NCBI RefSeq assembly: GCF_000025625.1
Contig: NC_013922.1
Location: 2,728,001 to 2,792,000 of the forward strand
Direction: 5' to 3'
DNA length: 64,000 nucleotides
From: Natrialba magadii ATCC 43099
Lineage (GTDB): Archaea > Halobacteriota > Halobacteria > Halobacteriales > Natrialbaceae
Shown here: positions 20,923-31,921 of the stretch, piece by piece
How the letters are laid out: each line of letters opens with the position of its first letter
How positions within the stretch are numbered: the first letter of the stretch is position 1
Notes under the pieces: generated by a model
What the model was told of the DNA's origin: nothing
Seen by the model: only the letters and a program-made list of their open reading frames with translations
Databases searched by the model: none
Translations under genes and position numbers: made by a program

Positions 20923-21849
20923 TCAGTCCGGATCGAACGGCGTAATCGAAATCGACTGTGCAATCGTCGAAATCCGAAGTACTGCAGCCGCGAGCAACGC
21001 AATCGGAAACAGTCCGACGAGAATCGTCCCCGTCACAATCGAAACAGACAGCGACGACAACGTCGCACCACCGTCGTACCCACTGAGGTGAATCAGGGAA
21101 CCGCCGGCCAGCGCAATCGCTGGAAGCCCCGCGTAGACGAGCAACCGCGACAGCCGCGAGAGTTCCTGCTGGATGTACATCGAGAGAAAGTAGTACCGCG
21201 CGATGTCGAGGGACTCGAGTGCGACCACAGTTTTGGCGAGGCGGTCGTCAGTTTCGGCAGGGCTGGGTGCAGTATGGGCCGCCTGAATCGAGTAGATCTC
21301 CTGTACATAGTCGAGGTAGCGGACGGGATAGATGGCGAGGACGACGGTACGGAGACTGTCGTCATCGGTGCCGAGACGCGCTGAAACGCGGTCGGTGTGG
21401 GTCTGTAGGCGCTCCCGAACGGAGAGTAATGACTCCTGAAACGGTGTGTTTGCTGGGACACCAGTGCCGAGGTCGGCGAGTGTCGCGTCGAGATCGGCGA
21501 CCGCGGCTCGGAGGAAACCGGCAGGCGAGAGGGATGCCGACGAGCCGTTCGTTGCGCGATGGTGAAAAGCGAGCGTCTCACGGATCTCACGCTGGAGTTC
21601 GGCTGGTGTACCGAAGTCACGGGAGATGACGAGTTGGTTGATCGAGACGACAACAGTGATGAGTGTTATGTTGCCGGCGACGAGGCTGCTGAGCAGGTAG
21701 TACAGCGGCGACTGATTCTCTCGGACGACGCCGACACCAGCGAAGCCGATGACAAGAGCGAGAACAGCCAGTGTGACGACGGCGACCTGAAGACGGTTCC
21801 CCGTCAGGAGTGCCCAGCGAGCGATCGCATCGCGTGTCTGTCCCGTCAT
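20923..21849 (-). CDS. Haloarchaeal multi-pass membrane protein
   Basis: ATG 21849 (MTGQTRDAIARWALLTGN) is preferred over an upstream ATG ten codons earlier. Two helices near the N-terminus (VAVVTLAVLALVIGFAGVGV and YYLLSSLVAGNITLITVVV) and two near the C-terminus flank a long, mostly helical soluble region (residues about 90-230). No known motif is seen. The layout, with a large central domain between helix pairs, resembles bestrophin-like or sensory membrane proteins only loosely, so the function is left open. Confidence 0.72.
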   Translation of the reverse strand: MTGQTRDAIARWALLTGNRLQVAVVTLAVLALVIGFAGVGVVRENQSPLYYLLSSLVAGNITLITVVVSINQLVISRDFGTPAELQREIRETLAFHHRATNGSSASLSPAGFLRAAVADLDATLADLGTGVPANTPFQESLLSVRERLQTHTDRVSARLGTDDDSLRTVVLAIYPVRYLDYVQEIYSIQAAHTAPSPAETDDRLAKTVVALESLDIARYYFLSMYIQQELSRLSRLLVYAGLPAIALAGGSLIHLSGYDGGATLSSLSVSIVTGTILVGLFPIALLAAAVLRISTIAQSISITPFDPD

Positions 21850-22001
21850 TGGCCAGTCTGACGACCGGCCCAGACGCACAAGTAGGTACGGGTGTCACGG
21901 GCGGGGAGTCAGAGAGTCGACGGTGAGACAGCGGTGAGTCAGAACAGTGAGTGACAGACGAGTCCGTCTGTGAAAGTGCCTGAAACTCGTCAGGAGCTCG
22001 T

Positions 22002-22277
22002 TCAGACGTCGACGTACTGGTTGACCCACTCCTGACGGCGTTGCAAAATCCGTCGTCCTTTCGGTGTCAATGCGTAGTAGTTCGTCCGGCGGTCGAGTTG
22101 CCCTTTCTCGACGAGCTGTTTCTCGACGAGTGTATCGAGATTCGGATACAGCCGTCCGTGAGTGACCGGCTGGTCGATATATCGATTGATATCGTCGAGA
22201 ATCTGCTGGCCCGACGGTCGATCCTTCCCTGCGATTACGTACAGCAAATCACGCTGGAATCCGGTTAACTGATCCAT
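22002..22277 (-). CDS. PadR-like winged-helix transcription regulator
   Basis: This encodes 91 residues. DLLYVIAGKDRPSGQQILDD, then YIDQPVTHGRLYPNLDTLVEK and DRRTNYYALTPKGRRILQRR form a compact winged helix of the PadR type common in haloarchaea. It would bind DNA as a dimer; no C-terminal dimerisation domain is present beyond the core. It is divergent from the Nudix gene, so the space between them (22278-22465) may hold its operator. Confidence 0.85.
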   Translation of the reverse strand: MDQLTGFQRDLLYVIAGKDRPSGQQILDDINRYIDQPVTHGRLYPNLDTLVEKQLVEKGQLDRRTNYYALTPKGRRILQRRQEWVNQYVDV

Positions 22278-22465
22278 GGATCATCCTCTGAATTGCAACC
22301 TTCATCCATTCGTGGCTTTGTTATAGAGTCTGTACGACCGCTGAGGGCGGCAGAACGGACCGCATAGTCCATCCACCCGTCGATTTAGCCGGTGATGGAT
22401 TTGAGTTGGATATCGTCACCCACCGTGACGCCGCGTTTTTGACAGACTGCGCCGTACCGGTCGGT

Positions 22466-23020
22466 ATGCCGACCGATCCGCTTGCCTGGGAAACCACCGA
22501 TCGAGAGGTAGCATACACCTGTCCGGGCTTCGATATCGTTAACGAGTCCGTTCGATTGCCCGACGGCACCGAAACCGACTTCGATTATCTCTCCGAACCG
22601 TCGAGCGTCTGCATCCTCCCGTTCACACCCGACGGCGACGTCGTCTGCATCGACGAGTGGCGACAGGCTGTCGCCCGTGTCAATCGTGGCCTCCCCGTCG
22701 GCGGCACCGAACCCGACGACACCGACCTCGAAGCCGCTGCCCGCCGCGAACTCCGCGAGGAAACCGGCTACGAGGCCGACCGCATGGAACCGCTCGTCAC
22801 GGTCGAACCCGCCAATGGCATCGCCGACTCCGTGTTGCACGTCTTCGTCGCCGAGGACTGTCAACCAACGGCTGAACAGGAACTCGACCACAACGAAAGC
22901 ATCCGCGTCGAACCGGTCGCCTTCGAGACGGTACTCGAGTCCCTGCTGGCTGGCGACATTCGAGATGGCCGGCTGGCGCTTGCGCTGTCGTACTATCAGC
23001 TTCAGGAGGAAACTGAGTAG
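22466..23020 (+). CDS. Nudix hydrolase (ADP-ribose pyrophosphatase-like)
   Basis: ATG 22466 (MPTDPLAWETTDREVAYTCP) gives 184 residues and matches the usual start of this haloarchaeal family; a TTG 20 codons earlier is less likely. The Nudix helix is LEAAARRELREETGYEAD (core REXXEEXG). FDYLSEPSSVCILPF and VVCIDEWRQAV resemble ADP-ribose pyrophosphatases. It likely hydrolyses a nucleoside diphosphate linked to another moiety, with Mg2+. Confidence 0.85.
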   Translation: MPTDPLAWETTDREVAYTCPGFDIVNESVRLPDGTETDFDYLSEPSSVCILPFTPDGDVVCIDEWRQAVARVNRGLPVGGTEPDDTDLEAAARRELREETGYEADRMEPLVTVEPANGIADSVLHVFVAEDCQPTAEQELDHNESIRVEPVAFETVLESLLAGDIRDGRLALALSYYQLQEETE

Positions 23021-23377: not shown

Positions 23378-24940
23378 TTAGCCCAGGATCGCGATGGAGT
23401 TCTGGTCGTCGTTATCGTCGTCCATCCCATCGTCATCGTTCATCTCATCGTCGTCGTCCATCTCGTCATCGTCCATCTCGTCATCGTCCATCTCGTCATC
23501 GTCCATCTCGTCATCGTCGGTCACGTCCTCGAGGTCGGACGCGTCACCGAGCGTGACGGTTTCTGCGGTTGCGTCACCGATCGAAATCGAGGATGCGCTC
23601 GCGTGCGAGACGGTCTCCTCATCGTTCATGTCGTTTTCGTCGTCAGCGACATCGTTCTCGTCATCTGCGTCATCCTCGTGGTTTTCGTCGTCGACGCCGT
23701 TATCGTCATCGGCCATCTCGTCGTCCTCGTCATCGACGCCGTTTTCGTCGTCATCGACGCCGTTGTCCTCATCGTCGACACCGTTGTCTTCGTCATCTAC
23801 TTCGGTGTCGTCGGTCTCGTCATCGTCGGCTTCCTCGAGTGACTCGACCGTCATCGAGTCGATGGTGACCTCGTCAACATCGAACTGCTCGATGGTCAGG
23901 TGCTCGAGTTCCTCACCGTTTGCGTCGTCTTCGTCGTCAACGACGCCATCGTCATTCTCTTCGTTTTCGTCGTCGACGCCGTTATCGTCGTCAGCGGCGT
24001 CGTCGTCAGCGGCGTCGTCGTCAGCGGCATCGTCGTTATCATCGACGCCGTTGTCCTCGTCATCTGCCTCGTCGTTCTCGTCGTCATCGTTGAAGAGGCC
24101 CTCGAAGAAGTCACCGACCTGGTCGAGGATACCGTCGTCATCCTCGATCTCCAGGTTGTCGATCGTCATCTCATCGACATCCATGGTCTCGATGGTGAGT
24201 TCGTGGACGGTTAGCTCGTCAGCGTCCTCATCGAAGAGGTCGAACTCGTCGTCAGTGGCCTCGTCGTCGTCAGCCATGTCGTCGTTGTCATCGACGCCGT
24301 TGTCGTCATTGTCGACACCGTTGTCCTCATCGTCCGCGTTGGTGTCGTCGTTGTCGTCGACGCCGTTGTCAGCGTCATCGTTTTCGTCGTCGACGCCGTT
24401 CTCGTCGTCGGCGTCAGCCTCGTCGTCCATTTCCGCATCATCCATCTCATCGTCATCGAGTTCGAGGTCCTCGATCGAGACGTCCTCGAGTTCGAGGTGC
24501 TCGATCTCGATGTCAGAGATCATGACGGACTCAGCGTCGTCATTGTCGTCGACGCCGTTGTCAGCGTCATCGACACCGTTGTCAGTATCGTCCGCGTTGG
24601 CGTCGTCGTTGTCATCGACGCCGTTCTCGTCGTCAGCGACGTCGTCGTTATCGTCGACGCCGTTGTCCTCGTCATCTGCTTCGTCGTTATCGTCCAGTTC
24701 CTCTTCAAGCTCCTCGTCGTCAACGTCGAACTGGTCGACGTTCAGTTCCTCGATAGTGGCGTTCTCGATCGTGACGTTGTCAAGATCGAGTGTGTCTACC
24801 TGTACGTCCTCGAGTGTTGCGCTCATGTCTCCGGTGTCGTCTGCGGCAGGTGCTGTCGCGCCTGCGAGGGCAGGACCCCCCGAGAGGGCGACCAGCAGTG
24901 CAACGAAGACGACTCCGATCTGTTGTGGTCGTGAAACCAT
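23378..24940 (-). CDS. Large exported acidic repeat protein, copy 1
   Basis: ATG 24940 (MVSRPQQIGVVFVALLVALS) is chosen because it aligns with the start of the paralogue at 28106; the protein has about 520 residues. A signal peptide ends near ALAGA. The mature chain alternates two element types. One is a run of five-residue strands such as VTIENATIEELNVDQFDVDD, resembling pentapeptide beta-helix coils with Ile/Val at the centre. The other is long acidic linkers built from DEDNGVDDNDD-like units. At least five strand blocks are seen. No anchor such as PGF-CTERM is visible; the end is NSIAILG. Possible roles are cation binding, adhesion or surface coating; none is demonstrated. Confidence 0.75.
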   Translation of the reverse strand: MVSRPQQIGVVFVALLVALSGGPALAGATAPAADDTGDMSATLEDVQVDTLDLDNVTIENATIEELNVDQFDVDDEELEEELDDNDEADDEDNGVDDNDDVADDENGVDDNDDANADDTDNGVDDADNGVDDNDDAESVMISDIEIEHLELEDVSIEDLELDDDEMDDAEMDDEADADDENGVDDENDDADNGVDDNDDTNADDEDNGVDNDDNGVDDNDDMADDDEATDDEFDLFDEDADELTVHELTIETMDVDEMTIDNLEIEDDDGILDQVGDFFEGLFNDDDENDEADDEDNGVDDNDDAADDDAADDDAADDDNGVDDENEENDDGVVDDEDDANGEELEHLTIEQFDVDEVTIDSMTVESLEEADDDETDDTEVDDEDNGVDDEDNGVDDDENGVDDEDDEMADDDNGVDDENHEDDADDENDVADDENDMNDEETVSHASASSISIGDATAETVTLGDASDLEDVTDDDEMDDDEMDDDEMDDDEMDDDDEMNDDDGMDDDNDDQNSIAILG

Positions 24941-25050
24941 GCGGACTGACATACCCCCTACTATTGGCTAAAACGAGCCGACTGTTACAGGCTTATCGCA
25001 GCGAAAAGTCCAGTTAGAATTCGTGCAAGAGTCGCTAATCACTCGTTCAT
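24941..25050 (-). promoter_or_regulatory. Promoter region of acidic protein copy 1, conserved with copy 2
   Basis: Blocks such as ggctaaaac-agc-gactgtt and gttagaa----tgcaa--gtcgctaat are shared with the region upstream of copy 2 (28107-28215). On the minus strand GTTTTAGCC lies about 30 bases before the ATG in both genes and may serve as the TATA-like element. Conservation beyond the coding sequence suggests duplication of the whole unit and similar regulation. Confidence 0.55.
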
Positions 25051-25284
25051 TATCTCAGGTTTCGAGTACGTTTTCGGCGACGATTTCGGGCACCCGTTTG
25101 AACTGAATTGCGTTTGTGCCTGCGGCTGCCACTTGATTATCGGAAGCACTCATTTACCGCCGCTCAGTACATGTCCGATGACTGTACTCAACCCATGAAC
25201 GACACGAGCACGGATTGTTCCAGTGGTGGCGTGGACTCGAGTAGAGCGAGTCAGTCGGCCGGCTCGCGGACAGCCAGCGCAGGA

Positions 25285-25370
25285 CTATAGTAGCCACTGC
25301 AAGTCACTGCACACCTGATCGCCAGCCTGCTCGGCGATCAGTGTGTAACTAGTTGCAGTTGTTACTATAG
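25285..25370 (+). repeat. 86-bp hairpin repeat, copy A
   Basis: It begins CTATAGTAGCCACTGCAAG and ends GTTGTTACTATAG, so the two halves are imperfect inverted copies that can fold into a long hairpin with a short loop around GCCTGCTC. The reverse complement occurs at 44891-44976 with only about two differences over 86 bases. No open frame is present. This looks like a small non-autonomous mobile or palindromic repeat. Confidence 0.85.
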
Positions 25371-25658
25371 AGCCGGCAAGGGGTGTGGATCAGAACGACA
25401 GAACTCGAGGCTGCAAGGAGAGGAGTCACTGCGAGCCACTGTGCACCTGATCGCACGACAGTGGTGTGAACAGTGTGTGAATAGGGGCAATTGGGACTAG
25501 CGCACGGACGGGCTGCTCGGATAGGGGAACGGACACTGTCCGAGGATTGCAGTCCAAAAATAGAATCGCCGACAACTGGCCGGCGGGTCGACCGGGAAGC
25601 GGTCGGTGCCGGTCGTCTGGCTGGACCGCCTCTCGTCTCGGTTTCGCCTTAGTTCGCG

Positions 25659-28106
25659 TTAGACGGCGAGTGCGTACTCTTCGTCGTTGTCGTCGTAGTC
25701 GTTGTCGTCGTAGTCGTTGTCGTCGTAGTCGTTGTCGTCGTAGTCGTCATCCTCGGCATCGTCGAGTTCGTCATCGTACTCGTCCTCGGCTCCGGTTATC
25801 TCGCCAACCGAGATGCTGTCGGCAGTCGCGTCACCGACGGTGATCGACGAGACGTAGAGTGATTCGATGGTCATCTCGTCGGTATCGGTATCGTCGATGC
25901 CGTTGTCATCGACGGCGGTTTCGTCGTCCTCGACACCGTTGTCGTCTACGTCAGCGTCGCCAGTATCGTCGACACCGTTGTCTTCGATTCCGTTGTCGTC
26001 GTACTCGTCGTCAGCGTCAACGGCGTTCTCCGCGTGGTCGTCTTCCTCAGCGTAGTCGTCGTCAACGTGTTCGTCCTGTTTGTCGTCGTACTCGTCATCG
26101 TGGGCGGCTTTGTCATCGTACTCGCCATCGTGGGCAGCTTTGTCATCGTACTCGTCATCGTGGGCAGCTTTGTCGTCCTTGTCCGCGTGCTCGTCGTCAG
26201 CCTCATCGACGTTGCACTCGGTCACTGCCTCGTCATCATCGTCGACAGCAACGTCGTTCTCGTCAGTTTCATACTCGTCGTCAGTCTCGTCGGGTGCAGC
26301 TTCCTCGTCAGGTTCGTCGAGTTCATCGTCGACTTCGACGCCATCATGCATCTCGTCGATGGCGCTGACGCTCATCGATTCGACGGTGAGTTCGTCGACG
26401 GTGAACTGCTGGATCGTGAGCTGGCTGATTTCGTGGACGGCTTCCTCGGTGTCTTCGACACCGTTGTCCTCGTACTCGTCGTCAGCGTCGTCAACGCCGT
26501 TGTCCTCGTACTCGTCGTCAGCATCGTCGATACCGTTCTCGTCAGTTTCGTATTCGTCGTTAGCGTCGTCGGTTTCGACACCGTCATCCATCTCGTCATC
26601 CATGGCGCTGACGGTCATCGATTCGACGGTGAGTTCAGTGGTGGTGAACTGCTGGATCGTGAGGTGGCCGATTTCGTGGACCGTTTCCTCGGTGTCTTCG
26701 ACACCGTTGTCGTCTACTTCAGTGTCGTCGGTATCGTCGACGTCGTTGTCTTCGACACCGTTGTCATCGTACTCGTCGGCATCGTCGACACCGTTCTCGT
26801 CGAGGTCGTCATCTTCGTACTCGTCGTCGGCATCGTCAACGCCGTTCTCGTCGAGGTCGTCGTCAACGCCGTCCTCGTCATCCGCTGCACCGCAACAGGC
26901 ACCGGTGTGTTCCTCGTCGTCAGTTGCCTCCTCATCGTCGACCATCTCGTCGTCCTCGTCGACCATCTCGTCATCCGCATCGATGGCAGTCTCGTCGTCA
27001 TCCATCATGTCATCATCGTCTGCCATCTCATCGTCGTCGACCAGCTCGTCATCCTCATCATCCGCCAGTTCGTCGTCCGCTTCTTCGTCGACACCGTCAT
27101 CCAGCTCGTCATCGGCCATCTCGTCTTCGACGACGAGTTCGTCGATGGTGAGCTGTGCAACGGTCATCGATTCGATGGTGAGTTCCTGGACGGTTAGTTC
27201 GTCAGCGTCCTCGTCGAAGAGGTCGTGGTCGTCGGCGTCATCGACGCCGTTCTCGTCGAGTTCGTCATCTTCGTACTCGTCGTCAGCGTCGTCAACACCG
27301 TTGTCTTCGACGCCATTGTCCTCGTACTCGTCGGCAGCGTCGACACCGTTCTCGTCGAGTTCGTCATCTTCGTACTCGTCGTCGGCATCGTCAACGCCGT
27401 TCTCGTCGAGTTCATCGTCGTCGACGGCCTCATCCTCGTCGACAACGATGTCCTCATCTGCCTCGTCCTCGACATCCTCATCCATCATCTCGTCCTCGAG
27501 TTCAACGTCCTCGATGGAGACGTCAGTCAGAACGAGCTGGTCGATCTGGATGTCGGAGATGGTGACGTGGTCCATCTCGTCAGCGTCGTCGACACCGTTC
27601 TCGTCTACCTCGTCGGTGTCCTCAACGCCGTTCTCGTCGTATTCGTCGTCCTCGACACCATTGTCTTCGACGCCATTGTCGTCGTATTCATCATCAGCAA
27701 CGCCGTTATCCTCGTACTCGTCATCAGCGTCGTCGACACCGTTCTCGTCGAGTTCGTCATCAGCGTCGTCAACGCCAGTCTCATCATCGAGCCCGTCAGC
27801 ATCAGCCGCATCGTCATCTACACCGGGCTCGTCGGCGTCTACATGCTCATCGTCAAGCAACGCATGCAGTTGCTCGTCGTCAACGTCGAACTGTTCGATG
27901 GTCAACTCCTCGATCGTCGCCTCCTCTACCGTAACCTCATCTAACTCGAGTGTGCCTACCTGTGCGTTCTCGACCGTCGCGCCCATGTCTCCGTCCTCAG
28001 TGTCGTCTGCGGCTGGTCCCGATCCGCCAGCGAGGGCAGGACCCCCCGACAGCGCGACCAGGAGCGCCACGAAGACAACACCGAGTTGCTGTGATCGTGA
28101 AACCAT
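25659..28106 (-). CDS. Large exported acidic repeat protein, copy 2
   Basis: This encodes 815 residues starting MVSRSQQLGVVFVALLVALS, nearly identical to the copy 1 signal peptide. It has the same alternation as copy 1: five-residue strand blocks (VTVEEATIEELTIEQFDVDD, LTVQELTIESMTVAQLTIDE) between acidic linkers, here richer in DEYDDNGVEDNGVED and ADDEYEDNGVDD. A central GACCGAA is one of the few places with Cys. A KAAHDDEYDD unit is repeated three times near residue 680. The C-terminus repeats DYDDN and ends EEYALAV. It is a tandem paralogue of copy 1, same strand, separated by the hairpin-bearing spacer. Probably exported and cation-rich; the function is unknown. Confidence 0.75.
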   Translation of the reverse strand: MVSRSQQLGVVFVALLVALSGGPALAGGSGPAADDTEDGDMGATVENAQVGTLELDEVTVEEATIEELTIEQFDVDDEQLHALLDDEHVDADEPGVDDDAADADGLDDETGVDDADDELDENGVDDADDEYEDNGVADDEYDDNGVEDNGVEDDEYDENGVEDTDEVDENGVDDADEMDHVTISDIQIDQLVLTDVSIEDVELEDEMMDEDVEDEADEDIVVDEDEAVDDDELDENGVDDADDEYEDDELDENGVDAADEYEDNGVEDNGVDDADDEYEDDELDENGVDDADDHDLFDEDADELTVQELTIESMTVAQLTIDELVVEDEMADDELDDGVDEEADDELADDEDDELVDDDEMADDDDMMDDDETAIDADDEMVDEDDEMVDDEEATDDEEHTGACCGAADDEDGVDDDLDENGVDDADDEYEDDDLDENGVDDADEYDDNGVEDNDVDDTDDTEVDDNGVEDTEETVHEIGHLTIQQFTTTELTVESMTVSAMDDEMDDGVETDDANDEYETDENGIDDADDEYEDNGVDDADDEYEDNGVEDTEEAVHEISQLTIQQFTVDELTVESMSVSAIDEMHDGVEVDDELDEPDEEAAPDETDDEYETDENDVAVDDDDEAVTECNVDEADDEHADKDDKAAHDDEYDDKAAHDGEYDDKAAHDDEYDDKQDEHVDDDYAEEDDHAENAVDADDEYDDNGIEDNGVDDTGDADVDDNGVEDDETAVDDNGIDDTDTDEMTIESLYVSSITVGDATADSISVGEITGAEDEYDDELDDAEDDDYDDNDYDDNDYDDNDYDDNDEEYALAV

Positions 28107-28396
28107 GCGCCCGGTGGTTCCCCCCGCGAGCGGCTAAAACAAGCTGACTGTTTCAGTCATGTCTGGATGGAAATGCTAGTTAGAACCCCTGCAATCGTCG
28201 CTAATGACCCATTCATGACTGTTGTCATGACTGTCATCCGTCGCAAGTATCGTGCTGTAGCTAGCAGCTAGTGCAGACGACAGATCGCTTGCCATCGCCA
28301 ACCGGAGTTCGCTGTTGACGCCCAGTCACCGGCCTCCCTGTCCACGGACGCCCGGAGAACGGAACGTTTACCGGTTCGCTCGTCAACACACTGTCG

Positions 28397-29872
28397 ATGC
28401 GCGAGTGCTTCGAAATCCGGGAGACCGACGCTGGCGGCCGGCTTGGCGAGCTCACCGTTCCGAGAGCCGACACCACCGTCGAAACGCCCGCCCTCCTGCC
28501 GGTGATCAACCCGAATCTGGATACGATCAGCCCCCGTCGGCTCGCCGACGAGTTCGGCGCTGAAATTCTCATCACGAACTCCTATATCATCCACGGCACC
28601 GACGACGTCCGCGAGGAGGCACTCGAGAAAGGCCTCCACGAACTGCTCGACTTCCCGGGGGCGATCATGACTGACTCGGGCTCGTTCCAGCTCGCCGAGT
28701 ACGGCGATATCGACGTCACCACGGAGGAGATCCTGGAATTTCAGCACGCGATTGGCTCGGATATCGGCACGCCGGTCGACATCCCGACGCCGCCGGACGT
28801 CCCCCGCGAGCGGGCGGAGGAGGAACTCGCGACGACACAGGAACGCCTCGAAGCCGCCGAAGACGTGGACACGGGCGAGATGCTCGTTACCGCACCTGTC
28901 CAGGGATCGACCTACCCGGATCTCCGGGAAGAGGCGGGCCGCCACGCCGACGCGACGGAGCTCGACGTCTTCCCAGTCGGCGCGGTCGTCCCGCTGATGA
29001 ACGACTACCGCTACGACGACGTGGTCGACGCCGTTGCCGCCGCAAAGCGTGGCCTGGGTGCTGACGCACCGGTTCACCTCTTCGGTGCCGGCCACCCCAT
29101 GATGTTCGCACTCGCCGCTGCGATGGGCTGTGACCTCTTTGACTCCGCGGCATATGCGCTCTACGCGCGCGATGACCGCTACCTCACCGTTCGCGGCACT
29201 CGGAATCTCGATGACCTGTCATATTTCCCCTGCTCGTGTCCCGTCTGTGCCGCCAACTCGCCGTCTGACATCCGTGAACTCCCGGACAAGGAGCGCGAAA
29301 CAGAGCTCGCCGCCCATAACCTCCACGTCACGTTCGCGGAAATCCGACGTATCAAGCAGGCCATCCGTGCCGGCAACCTGCTCGAACTCGTCGAACAGCG
29401 CGCTCGCGCCCACCCGACGATGCTCGACGGCTACCGGGCACTGCTCGACCACGCGGCGGCACTCGAGCAGACGGATCCCGTCTCGAAGGGCGCGTTCTTC
29501 TACACGTCCCACGAGAGTGCGCGACGCCCCGAGGTCCTGCGACACCACCAGCGACTCGACCGGCTCTCGGTGCCGGACTCGCTGCTCCTGACAGAGGGAG
29601 ACGCCCCGCGAGGCGACGAGTTCGACGATTCCTGGCGTGTCGAACCGCCGTTCGGTCCGTTCCCGCGAGCGCTCTCGAAGAGCTATCCGCTCACGGCCGA
29701 GGTGCCGGATCGGACGGACCGCGCCGCGATTGCAGCCGCTGCAGACGGCGTCACACGCCTGGTCGAGGCGAATCCGGACACAGCGTTCACGCTGGCACAC
29801 CGGGGCTGGCCCGCGGCGGTACTCGAGACAGTACCAGCGACAGTTGAACTGGTGGATCTCGACGACGAGTGA
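28397..29872 (+). CDS. tgtA: tRNA-guanine(15) transglycosylase
   Basis: This encodes 491 residues. The catalytic aspartate region is [15 protein letters not shown] (Asp93), with the zinc site CSCPVC plus a downstream His, and [19 protein letters not shown]. The enzyme swaps guanine at position 15 of archaeal tRNAs for preQ0, the first step in making archaeosine. The length lacks a C-terminal PUA domain, which fits the split arrangement in which the related ArcS protein (36009) carries PUA. It starts about 290 bases downstream (on the other strand) of the acidic gene start, so the promoter region is shared and divergent. Confidence 0.95.
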
Positions 29873-29965: not shown

Positions 29966-31921
29966 GTGCGCGAACGCTCTCGGAACACGTTGCGTCTCGG
30001 CGTGGCACTCGTCATCGGAGTCGTGTGTATCGTCGGGCTCACCGGCCTCTTTATCGCCGACGTCGGCTCGACGACACCGCCACCCGCCGAGTTCGACGAT
30101 ACCGTCCCCGTCGGACTCACACTCGAGGACGAGCGCGGCCTCGACGACGCCGTTTCTCTCCCGCAGGCGCAGGTGTTCTACTCGCAATACCAGTACGTCG
30201 TCGGCTACTACGGCGTCGAGACCTTCGTCGACGAGCGCCAGCAAGCCGGCCACGAACAGCAGTTCGGCCACCCGCTGACGGTGTACGTCTCCGACTACAG
30301 CGACACCGCACTCGAGTTGAGTGCCGAGGGGTATCCGATTCCCGAGCAGTCACCCGGTTGGACCGACGCCGAGACCGCGTGGTTCGTCGTCGACAGTGAC
30401 GCGCAGACGCCGGCGGGCGACACGGTTGTCCCGTTCAGCGAGCGCGAGGATGCCGAGACGTTCGCTGGTGACCACGGCGGTAGCGTCTACGACTGGGAGT
30501 CAGTACTCGAGCAGTCGTTCGACCGAGATGATGCGACGGTCGCTCGTGACCGTGTCGACGACCATCACCAGGTAGCGGATGACCGTATCGAGGCCGTCGA
30601 CTCGGCCGCTGACCGGCCACCGTCGATCGTCGCCGGCGAAGAGACGGAGACGATTCAGGAGGCGATCGATCAGGCACCGGCGAACACGACCGTCGTTGTC
30701 CCCGAGGGAACCTACGAGGAGACACTCGAGATCGACCGACCGATCACGCTCGCCGGCGAGGGAGAGGTGACGATTCGCGGCGACGATAACAGTACTGTCA
30801 TTACCGTCACAGGAGACGGCGTCGGGATCCAGAACCTCGCGATCACCGGCGTTGGCAACCAGACACAGGGTGGCGAGGATCTCCCCGTTGATGTCGACGA
30901 GGACGAGTGGGACGCGACCTTCACGACGTACTACGCCGGCACTGACGCAGGAATCGGAGCCTACGGTGCCGACAACCTCCACGTATCTGATATCGATGTC
31001 GAGACGCCTGCAAGCGGGGTGATCGGCTACGACAGCACGGATGCCGTTGTCCGGAACGTCTCAGTGACGGGTCCCGATGACCCGACAGATGGTCTCGCCG
31101 GCATCTTGCTGTTTCAGTCGCCCAGCGTGGTCGAATCGTCGAGCGTTCAGGGTGGAACGAACGGGATCTATCTCTACCGGTCTCCGGAGACGGTTCTCCG
31201 ATCGAACGAGGCCGACGGCAACGAAATCGGCGTGCACCTGATGCACACGAGCGATACGCTGATCGACGGAAACGAACTCCGATCGCATCCCGGCGCTGGG
31301 ATCTACGTAATGACCGGTCCCGAACGAAATGCAATCGTCGACAACGATATCCGAGCGAGCGAGACCGCCATCAGCGTCGGTGGCAGCGAGACGTACGTCG
31401 CATCGAACGTCGTCACCGACAACGGGCTCGGACTACGGGTGGAGTCCACCACCTCGTTCTACGACGGCAACGTCCTCGCCGGTAACACCGTCGGTGCGGA
31501 CGTGACGGCGATGCTTCCGACCAATCGTGTCATCGAAAACGACTTCGTCGAGAACGACGAGCACGCGACGGCAACGTCCGGGCCACTTCGGATCTGGAAC
31601 GACGGCGACAGCGGCAACTACTGGCAGGGCGGTGCAGCGATCGCAGGCGACGCCACCGGGACTCACGCCGACCGCTCGTATACGCCGACTGATGCAGTCG
31701 ACTCTCAACTACACCGCACCGACGGAACACAGACACTCGTTCGAGCGCCGTCACTGCAAGCACTCGCCGGACTCGAGGGCTCGGTTCCCGGCATGCGGAC
31801 GGGAAGTATCGTCGACCAAACGCCGACCTGCGAGCCGAACAATCCGGAACGACTCGACCGAACCGACTGGGCCGAGGCCGCCTGGCCGTGTGCCGACGCA
31901 ACCATTTCGACCAATGACTGA
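29966..31921 (+). CDS. nosD: NosD-like copper-maturation protein with NosL-like N-terminal domain
   Basis: This encodes 651 residues from a GTG start. An N-terminal helix (LGVALVIGVVCIVGLTGLF) acts as signal anchor. Residues about 45-195 resemble NosL (AWFVVDSDAQTPAGDTVVPF, then REDAETFAGDHGGSVYDW) but lack its Cys pair. Residues about 220-610 form a parallel beta-helix of CASH type (QEAIDQAPANTTVVVPEGTY, NGIYLYRSPETVLRSNEADG). NosD helps insert the copper centre of nitrous oxide reductase together with NosFY. Its stop overlaps the nosF start by 8 bases. Confidence 0.88.
   Translation: MRERSRNTLRLGVALVIGVVCIVGLTGLFIADVGSTTPPPAEFDDTVPVGLTLEDERGLDDAVSLPQAQVFYSQYQYVVGYYGVETFVDERQQAGHEQQFGHPLTVYVSDYSDTALELSAEGYPIPEQSPGWTDAETAWFVVDSDAQTPAGDTVVPFSEREDAETFAGDHGGSVYDWESVLEQSFDRDDATVARDRVDDHHQVADDRIEAVDSAADRPPSIVAGEETETIQEAIDQAPANTTVVVPEGTYEETLEIDRPITLAGEGEVTIRGDDNSTVITVTGDGVGIQNLAITGVGNQTQGGEDLPVDVDEDEWDATFTTYYAGTDAGIGAYGADNLHVSDIDVETPASGVIGYDSTDAVVRNVSVTGPDDPTDGLAGILLFQSPSVVESSSVQGGTNGIYLYRSPETVLRSNEADGNEIGVHLMHTSDTLIDGNELRSHPGAGIYVMTGPERNAIVDNDIRASETAISVGGSETYVASNVVTDNGLGLRVESTTSFYDGNVLAGNTVGADVTAMLPTNRVIENDFVENDEHATATSGPLRIWNDGDSGNYWQGGAAIAGDATGTHADRSYTPTDAVDSQLHRTDGTQTLVRAPSLQALAGLEGSVPGMRTGSIVDQTPTCEPNNPERLDRTDWAEAAWPCADATISTND

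Follow-up and report, generated by a model that had tools for sequence, protein, structure and literature searches.

Tandem genes of Natrialba magadii represent a haloarchaeal family of exported proteins with pentad blocks, acidic linkers, a dedicated promoter element, and niche-matched linker chemistry

Pentapeptide repeat proteins (Pfam Pentapeptide clan) follow a five-residue register with two inward-pointing side chains, a small residue at i-2 and L/F at i. Acidic polymers in the wall of alkaliphilic Bacillus are held to bring down the surface pH (PMC8153356). Here, we describe a tandem gene pair, A and B, that shares features with both and lies in a 64,000-nucleotide stretch of Natrialba magadii ATCC 43099 (contig NC_013922.1, positions 2,728,001 to 2,792,000; hereafter the window). 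The encoded proteins resemble pentapeptide repeat proteins in their five-residue register, in their inward-facing positions, and in a predicted beta-solenoid. However, their i-2 position holds bulky V/L/M/F and their i position I/V, and their blocks are interrupted by long acidic loops. Set against the quadrilateral right-handed solenoid, AlphaFold placed strands throughout the blocks, and Foldseek matches were non-significant. A and B belong to a new, unnamed, broadly distributed family of pentad solenoids with acidic disordered loops, of which both the block fold and the disorder of the linkers are predicted. The family has two unexpected properties: a promoter element of its own and a linker chemistry that matches the pH niche of the host.

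Inspection of the open reading frames (ORFs) in the window placed A and B in tandem on the minus strand, at 23378-24952 and 25659-28106. The first-pass annotation, made from the letters alone, had proposed two tandem genes of about 520 and 815 residues with nearly identical signal peptides, and both points held: 25/27 signal peptide positions are identical between A and B. It had also called the proteins giant, which overstates their size. By inspection, the signal peptides are of the Sec type, with an n-region Arg, a VVFVALLVALSGG core, and ALAG at the cleavage region. Inspection gave no sign of PGF-CTERM or lipobox anchoring, A having no Cys and a cleavage region that reads ALAGA, or of a C-terminal membrane helix, the hydrophobic C-terminal stretch being no longer than ∼6 residues. 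The proteins thus appear to be exported by Sec and to lack a membrane anchor, as that annotation had supposed for the C-terminus.

Pfam and NCBIfam searches with A, B, and 54 homologues returned no model covering them. Pentapeptide_4 reached only E 0.014 or worse, in 7/54 homologues and with no match to A, and neither A nor B reached the gathering threshold of the Pfam Pentapeptide clan. We found the family described nowhere in the literature that we searched, and the N. magadii genome paper speaks of peptide repeats only in general (PMC3403918). The earlier suggestion of an unnamed haloarchaeal family was therefore borne out. A 75-aa N-terminal query found clear orthologues in most genomes of Natrialbaceae. 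A profile of the signal peptide plus block 1, which recovered the best window copy with an E value of 4.7e-41, matched 122/295 sampled haloarchaeal genomes of the order, including Halorussus, Haladaptatus, and Halostella, so that this exported family occurs in ∼40% of the genomes sampled.

Both proteins contain five homologous blocks with acidic linkers between them, and B has block 4 duplicated. The blocks comprise ∼5-7 pentads, about one turn or slightly more, with hydrophobic residues at positions 1 and 3 of each five-residue unit, as in pentapeptide repeats. This hydrophobic register was present in all five blocks of A and B (scores 0.57-0.94 versus ∼0.2 for shuffled sequences; p 0.0002-0.004). 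Across the 54 homologues, the hydrophobic autocorrelation of blocks 1-4 was 2.4-fold the expected value at lags 5 and 10, and 0.15-0.19-fold at lags 1, 4, and 6. The blocks were also near constant in length over these homologues (coefficient of variation [CV] 0.01-0.05 for blocks 1-4) and conserved in sequence (mean majority 0.65-0.73); length variation in block 5 was inflated by members with an extra C-terminal domain. Linkers, by comparison, ranged from 3 to 237 residues (CV 0.40-0.64).

We observed that blocks 1 and 2 form an unbroken single register of 12 pentads in six distant relatives. In Halorussus and Haladaptatus, the two blocks are separated by a 2-residue phase shift alone; at the same junction, the linker of Natrialbaceae members has a median length of 35 residues and reaches 98. 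Since the register of blocks 1-2 is continuous in distant relatives, we read the linkers as loops inserted in one beta-solenoid; long disordered loops would thus be tolerable inside a repeat solenoid. AlphaFold models of A and of a short-linker Haladaptatus protein predicted strands in every block, with a predicted local distance difference test (pLDDT) score of ∼80-91 in blocks 2-5 of A and ∼65-85 in the Haladaptatus protein, and predicted template modeling (pTM) scores of 0.45 and 0.49, respectively. In both models, the linkers were mostly at pLDDT <50. The register and the predicted strands agree with the first-pass view of the blocks as short beta coils. A block of about one turn with strands throughout needs to pair with other blocks, and we therefore infer that the blocks stack into one solenoid.

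'Putative adhesin'-type proteins of Bacteroidota came out on top in separate profile and fold searches. The family profile had a single match among PDB sequences, 3pet 'Putative adhesin' (E 0.56, non-significant). The top Foldseek matches were likewise non-significant: A was closest to right-handed beta-helix enzymes, and the Haladaptatus model to 3lyc/3jx8. We take 3lyc and 3jx8 to be of the DUF2807 type. With E values of 0.56 to 2.9 for 3pet, 3lyc, and 3jx8, and with no acidic loops in those proteins, the likeness is a lead and does not amount to membership.

The first of the two unexpected properties is the promoter. A motif, ~G[T/A]AACAGTC-N5-GTTTTAG, starts 48 or 49 nt before the ATG in 58/59 Natrialbaceae members. 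When six genomes were searched with a 21-nt pattern allowing ≤2 mismatches, 10/10 matches lay at family genes, and the reversed control gave 0. A search of five genomes for the 14 fixed bases with ≤1 mismatch returned nine exact matches, all at family genes; two further matches, each with one mismatch, lay elsewhere, and the control gave one. The motif is essentially private to the family in the Natrialbaceae genomes tested. A related pattern, ~AAACGGT-N7-GTTTAT, precedes distant relatives, and 3/4 exact matches to a stricter form of it in six distant genomes were at family genes. A dedicated promoter element implies tight, ancient regulation, and the PadR-type protein encoded nearby is a candidate regulator. 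The locus is also conserved: nearly all Natrialbaceae loci examined have the gene order tgtA, a single family gene or a pair, NUDIX, PadR. Together, the dedicated promoter and the conserved locus suggest an important role for the family.

The second property concerns the linkers. Mature A has 493 residues, of which 50% are Asp or Glu and none are Lys or Arg, for a net charge of -247. NGVDD units, already picked out in the first-pass annotation, number 13 in A and 9 in B versus 0.01 expected. The linkers of other homologues show other chemistries, among them EDNETEDNET, NESEDNE, DENDV, EETTEE, and ANETT. We compared linker chemistry with niche in 61 homologues. The median charge per residue was -0.50 in haloalkaliphiles and -0.30 in neutrophiles, and N-glycosylation sequons stood at 0.24 and 6.9 per 100 aa, respectively. 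Sequons held 79% of Asn in neutrophiles versus 7% in haloalkaliphiles; their counts were 668 versus 169 expected in the former and 59 versus 76 expected in the latter.

The tree of the neighboring tRNA-guanine transglycosylase (TGT) protein requires at least 8 changes of niche label. No independent pair opposes the trend, the 4 pairs on well-supported branches being too few for significance alone. In phylogenetically independent contrasts (PIC), charge had r = -0.87 (p 1.5e-9) and sequons r = -0.84; with three uncertain niche labels removed, both stood at r = -0.90. The charge of TGT itself did not correlate with niche (PIC r = -0.25, p 0.2), and neither the TGT nor the NUDIX proteins from these loci differed between niches. 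We considered, and rejected, the idea that sequons disappeared because the glycosylation machinery had been lost: the oligosaccharyltransferase AglB/STT3 was present in 14/14 genomes tested, so absence of the enzyme does not explain the missing sequons. Sequons have been traded for naked acid with pH niche, also after correction for phylogeny, which makes the family a testable case of surface-protein adaptation to alkalinity.

We tentatively favor, at a little less than an even chance, a reading in which A and B are secreted solenoid-plus-bristle paralogues that form or decorate a hydrated anionic layer. After Sec export, the five pentad blocks would stack as one small beta-solenoid, from which the long linkers, still disordered, would project as looped polyanionic bristles. 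A strongly anionic, hydrated layer of this kind would probably lie at or around the S-layer, and the likely function of the proteins would be that of a secreted polyanionic coat. In neutrophiles, the bristles may be N-glycosylated at their very dense sequons. In haloalkaliphiles, they would be bare chains of carboxylate, which could retain cations and protons on the cell surface and might then work as acidic wall polymers do in alkaliphilic Bacillus, although the two are unrelated. The likeness to teichuronopeptide lies in a fixed negative charge outside the membrane of an alkaliphile (PMC8153356). However, teichuronopeptide is an enzyme-made poly-gamma-glutamate/polyglucuronate, whereas the family consists of ribosomally made, exported proteins that are found in neutrophiles as well. 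A bolder version, which we regard as unlikely, would be a 'switchable bottlebrush': a conserved solenoid scaffold under a family-only promoter, whose disordered bristles switched repeatedly and independently over the niche changes counted on the TGT tree, carrying N-glycans at neutral pH and consisting of bare polyaspartate/polyglutamate at alkaline pH; the whole would act as a protein counterpart of alkaliphile acidic wall polymers and directly support life at pH 9-10.

The main rival, adhesion, has in our estimate a modest chance of being correct. A and B would be cell-cell or biofilm adhesion or matrix proteins, with partners bound by the solenoid and spacing provided by the bristles. CARDB is the 'cell adhesion related domain found in bacteria', and a Halorussus relative ends in such a domain (PF07705, E 1e-6, above the cutoff), like archaeal CARDB proteins. 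The single PDB profile match to a putative adhesin points the same way, and the conserved hydrophobic C-terminus and an amphipathic helix found in one class of copies could mediate contacts. However, CARDB is present only in some distant relatives; A and B lack it, none was found in a whole-protein scan of the 54 homologues, and Natrialbaceae members have no recognized binding domain. A highly charged brush also tends toward repulsion, and the fold matches are non-significant. The linkers might instead have arisen by codon-repeat slippage as neutral filler that need only stay soluble in high salt, with the solenoid as the whole function. They are full of imperfect tandem DNA repeats and free in length and sequence, as such filler would be, and part of their pattern could stem from a pressure that acts generally on exported disordered segments. 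Neutral filler would not, however, yield zero Lys/Arg across mature A, nor such unequal shares of Asn in sequons in the two niches, and the correlation with niche survives phylogenetic correction; we consider this explanation unlikely.

We find it improbable that A and B are Ca/Mg-binding secreted proteins whose Asp/Asn/Gly linker units are specific EF-hand-like or thrombospondin type-3 (TSP3)-like sites, the resemblance raised in the first-pass annotation. With about half of their residues Asp or Glu and with regular NGVDD units, the linkers could plausibly bind divalent cations in bulk, non-specifically. EF-hand core motifs (DxDxDG type), however, occurred at chance level in A and B (2 and 3 observed versus 1.8-1.9 expected), and neither protein contained a full EF-hand motif, a TSP3 core (DxDxDGxxDxxD, also without a Pfam match), or an RTX nonapeptide (GGxGxDxUx). 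NGVDD is moreover limited to some lineages and missing from many members, which have NET/NES, ETT, or EETTEE linkers instead and retain the blocks. What the linkers keep is free length, disorder, and acidity to differing degrees, and no metal-site motif.

Several points weigh against a bristle coat tuned to pH. The packing of all blocks into one solenoid is something we infer from the models, for which Foldseek found no significant match in the PDB. We assigned the niche labels ourselves, by species and by the names of strains or samples, and not from a database. Some Natrialbaceae genomes lack the family, which is therefore not essential for haloalkaliphily, and since neutrophiles also carry it, a pH role cannot be its sole role. 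An exported acidic DUF4397 neighbor leans the same way with niche (three versus three proteins), so the pressure may cover exported disordered segments generally, and the shift may not be private to the family. A halocyanin control was not used, as its ORF picking was unreliable and it held 4 neutrophile proteins only.

Positions of the features in the window, read on the forward strand
Feature	Position	Strand	Remark
Gene A	23381..24940	-	exported 520-aa protein, class A; adjoins NUDIX gene; start is second ATG
Gene B	25662..28106	-	exported 815-aa paralogue, class B; adjoins tgtA
Promoter element before A, GTAACAGTCGGCTCGTTTTA	24969..24988	-	
Promoter element before B, GAAACAGTCAGCTTGTTTTA	28135..28154	-	
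Signal peptide of A	24860..24940	-	Sec type by sequence inspection; no lipobox Cys, no twin Arg
Signal peptide of B	28026..28106	-	
A block 1	24707..24820	-	7 pentads
A block 2	24449..24532	-	
A block 3	24137..24229	-	
A block 4	23825..23914	-	
A block 5	23528..23617	-	
B block 1	27867..27980	-	
B block 2	27489..27572	-	
B block 3	27123..27212	-	
B block 4, first copy	26598..26678	-	
B block 4, duplicated copy	26355..26435	-	
B block 5	25785..25880	-	
Amphipathic helix DGILDQVGDFFEGLF	24083..24136	-	conserved; class A only; directly after A block 3
C-terminus of A, QNSIAILG	23381..23404	-	short, hydrophobic, conserved
Insert HTGACCGAA in linker of B	26883..26909	-	contains Cys; common to at least one Natrialba orthologue
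tgtA (tRNA-guanine transglycosylase)	28397..29872	+	divergent conserved neighbor, context only
NUDIX hydrolase	22406..23020	+	convergent conserved neighbor, context
PadR-type regulator	22002..22277	-	conserved neighbor, context

In gene A, the first ATG would give 524 aa and the second Met gives 520 aa; we took the latter as the likely start because the alignment, the promoter spacing, and the second copy agree on it. Plus-strand ORFs such as 23394-24971 (+) were dismissed as mirror artefacts of acidic codons, as conservation, promoter, and signal peptide favor the minus strand. In tandem pairs with listed blocks, the NUDIX-side copy has the amphipathic helix (class A) and the tgtA-side copy does not (class B). 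Variants of the hydrophobic C-terminus (QNSIAILG, QPSIAVLG, and others) are kept in most family members, and the Cys-containing linker insert is a feature of Natrialba B copies. The first-pass annotation had missed three conserved features: the C-terminus, the helix that follows block 3 in the 520-aa protein, and the promoter.

A and B are the only family members in their own genome. A third own-genome match (L009:817-2463, E 0.145) is a different, unrelated protein with the repeat pattern IESEVINTEIVERHVVDSELVDRDVV and no evident signal peptide. A plasmid-borne origin was rejected, as there was no match among plasmids. Halorussus-type relatives (L108:4995-7202, L192, L193, L109) have a second acidic or Thr-rich tail after their C-terminal CARDB-like domain.

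In Natrialbaceae, an exported DUF4397 protein often follows the conserved gene order of the locus. Many Natrialbaceae encode, near the family, a DUF4397 exported protein with a long acidic DENGYDD-type tail (L052:11951-13306, L041:12982-14112, L068:13142-14494, and others); in the N. magadii window, the DUF4397 protein is not adjacent to the family. A 318-aa predicted membrane protein without a Pfam match (20923-21879, minus strand) is conserved beside the locus in Natrialba. Beyond tgtA, at 29966-31921, a NosL-NosD fusion (a copper protein of the beta-helix type) precedes an ABC-2 permease, an arrangement conserved in some genera.

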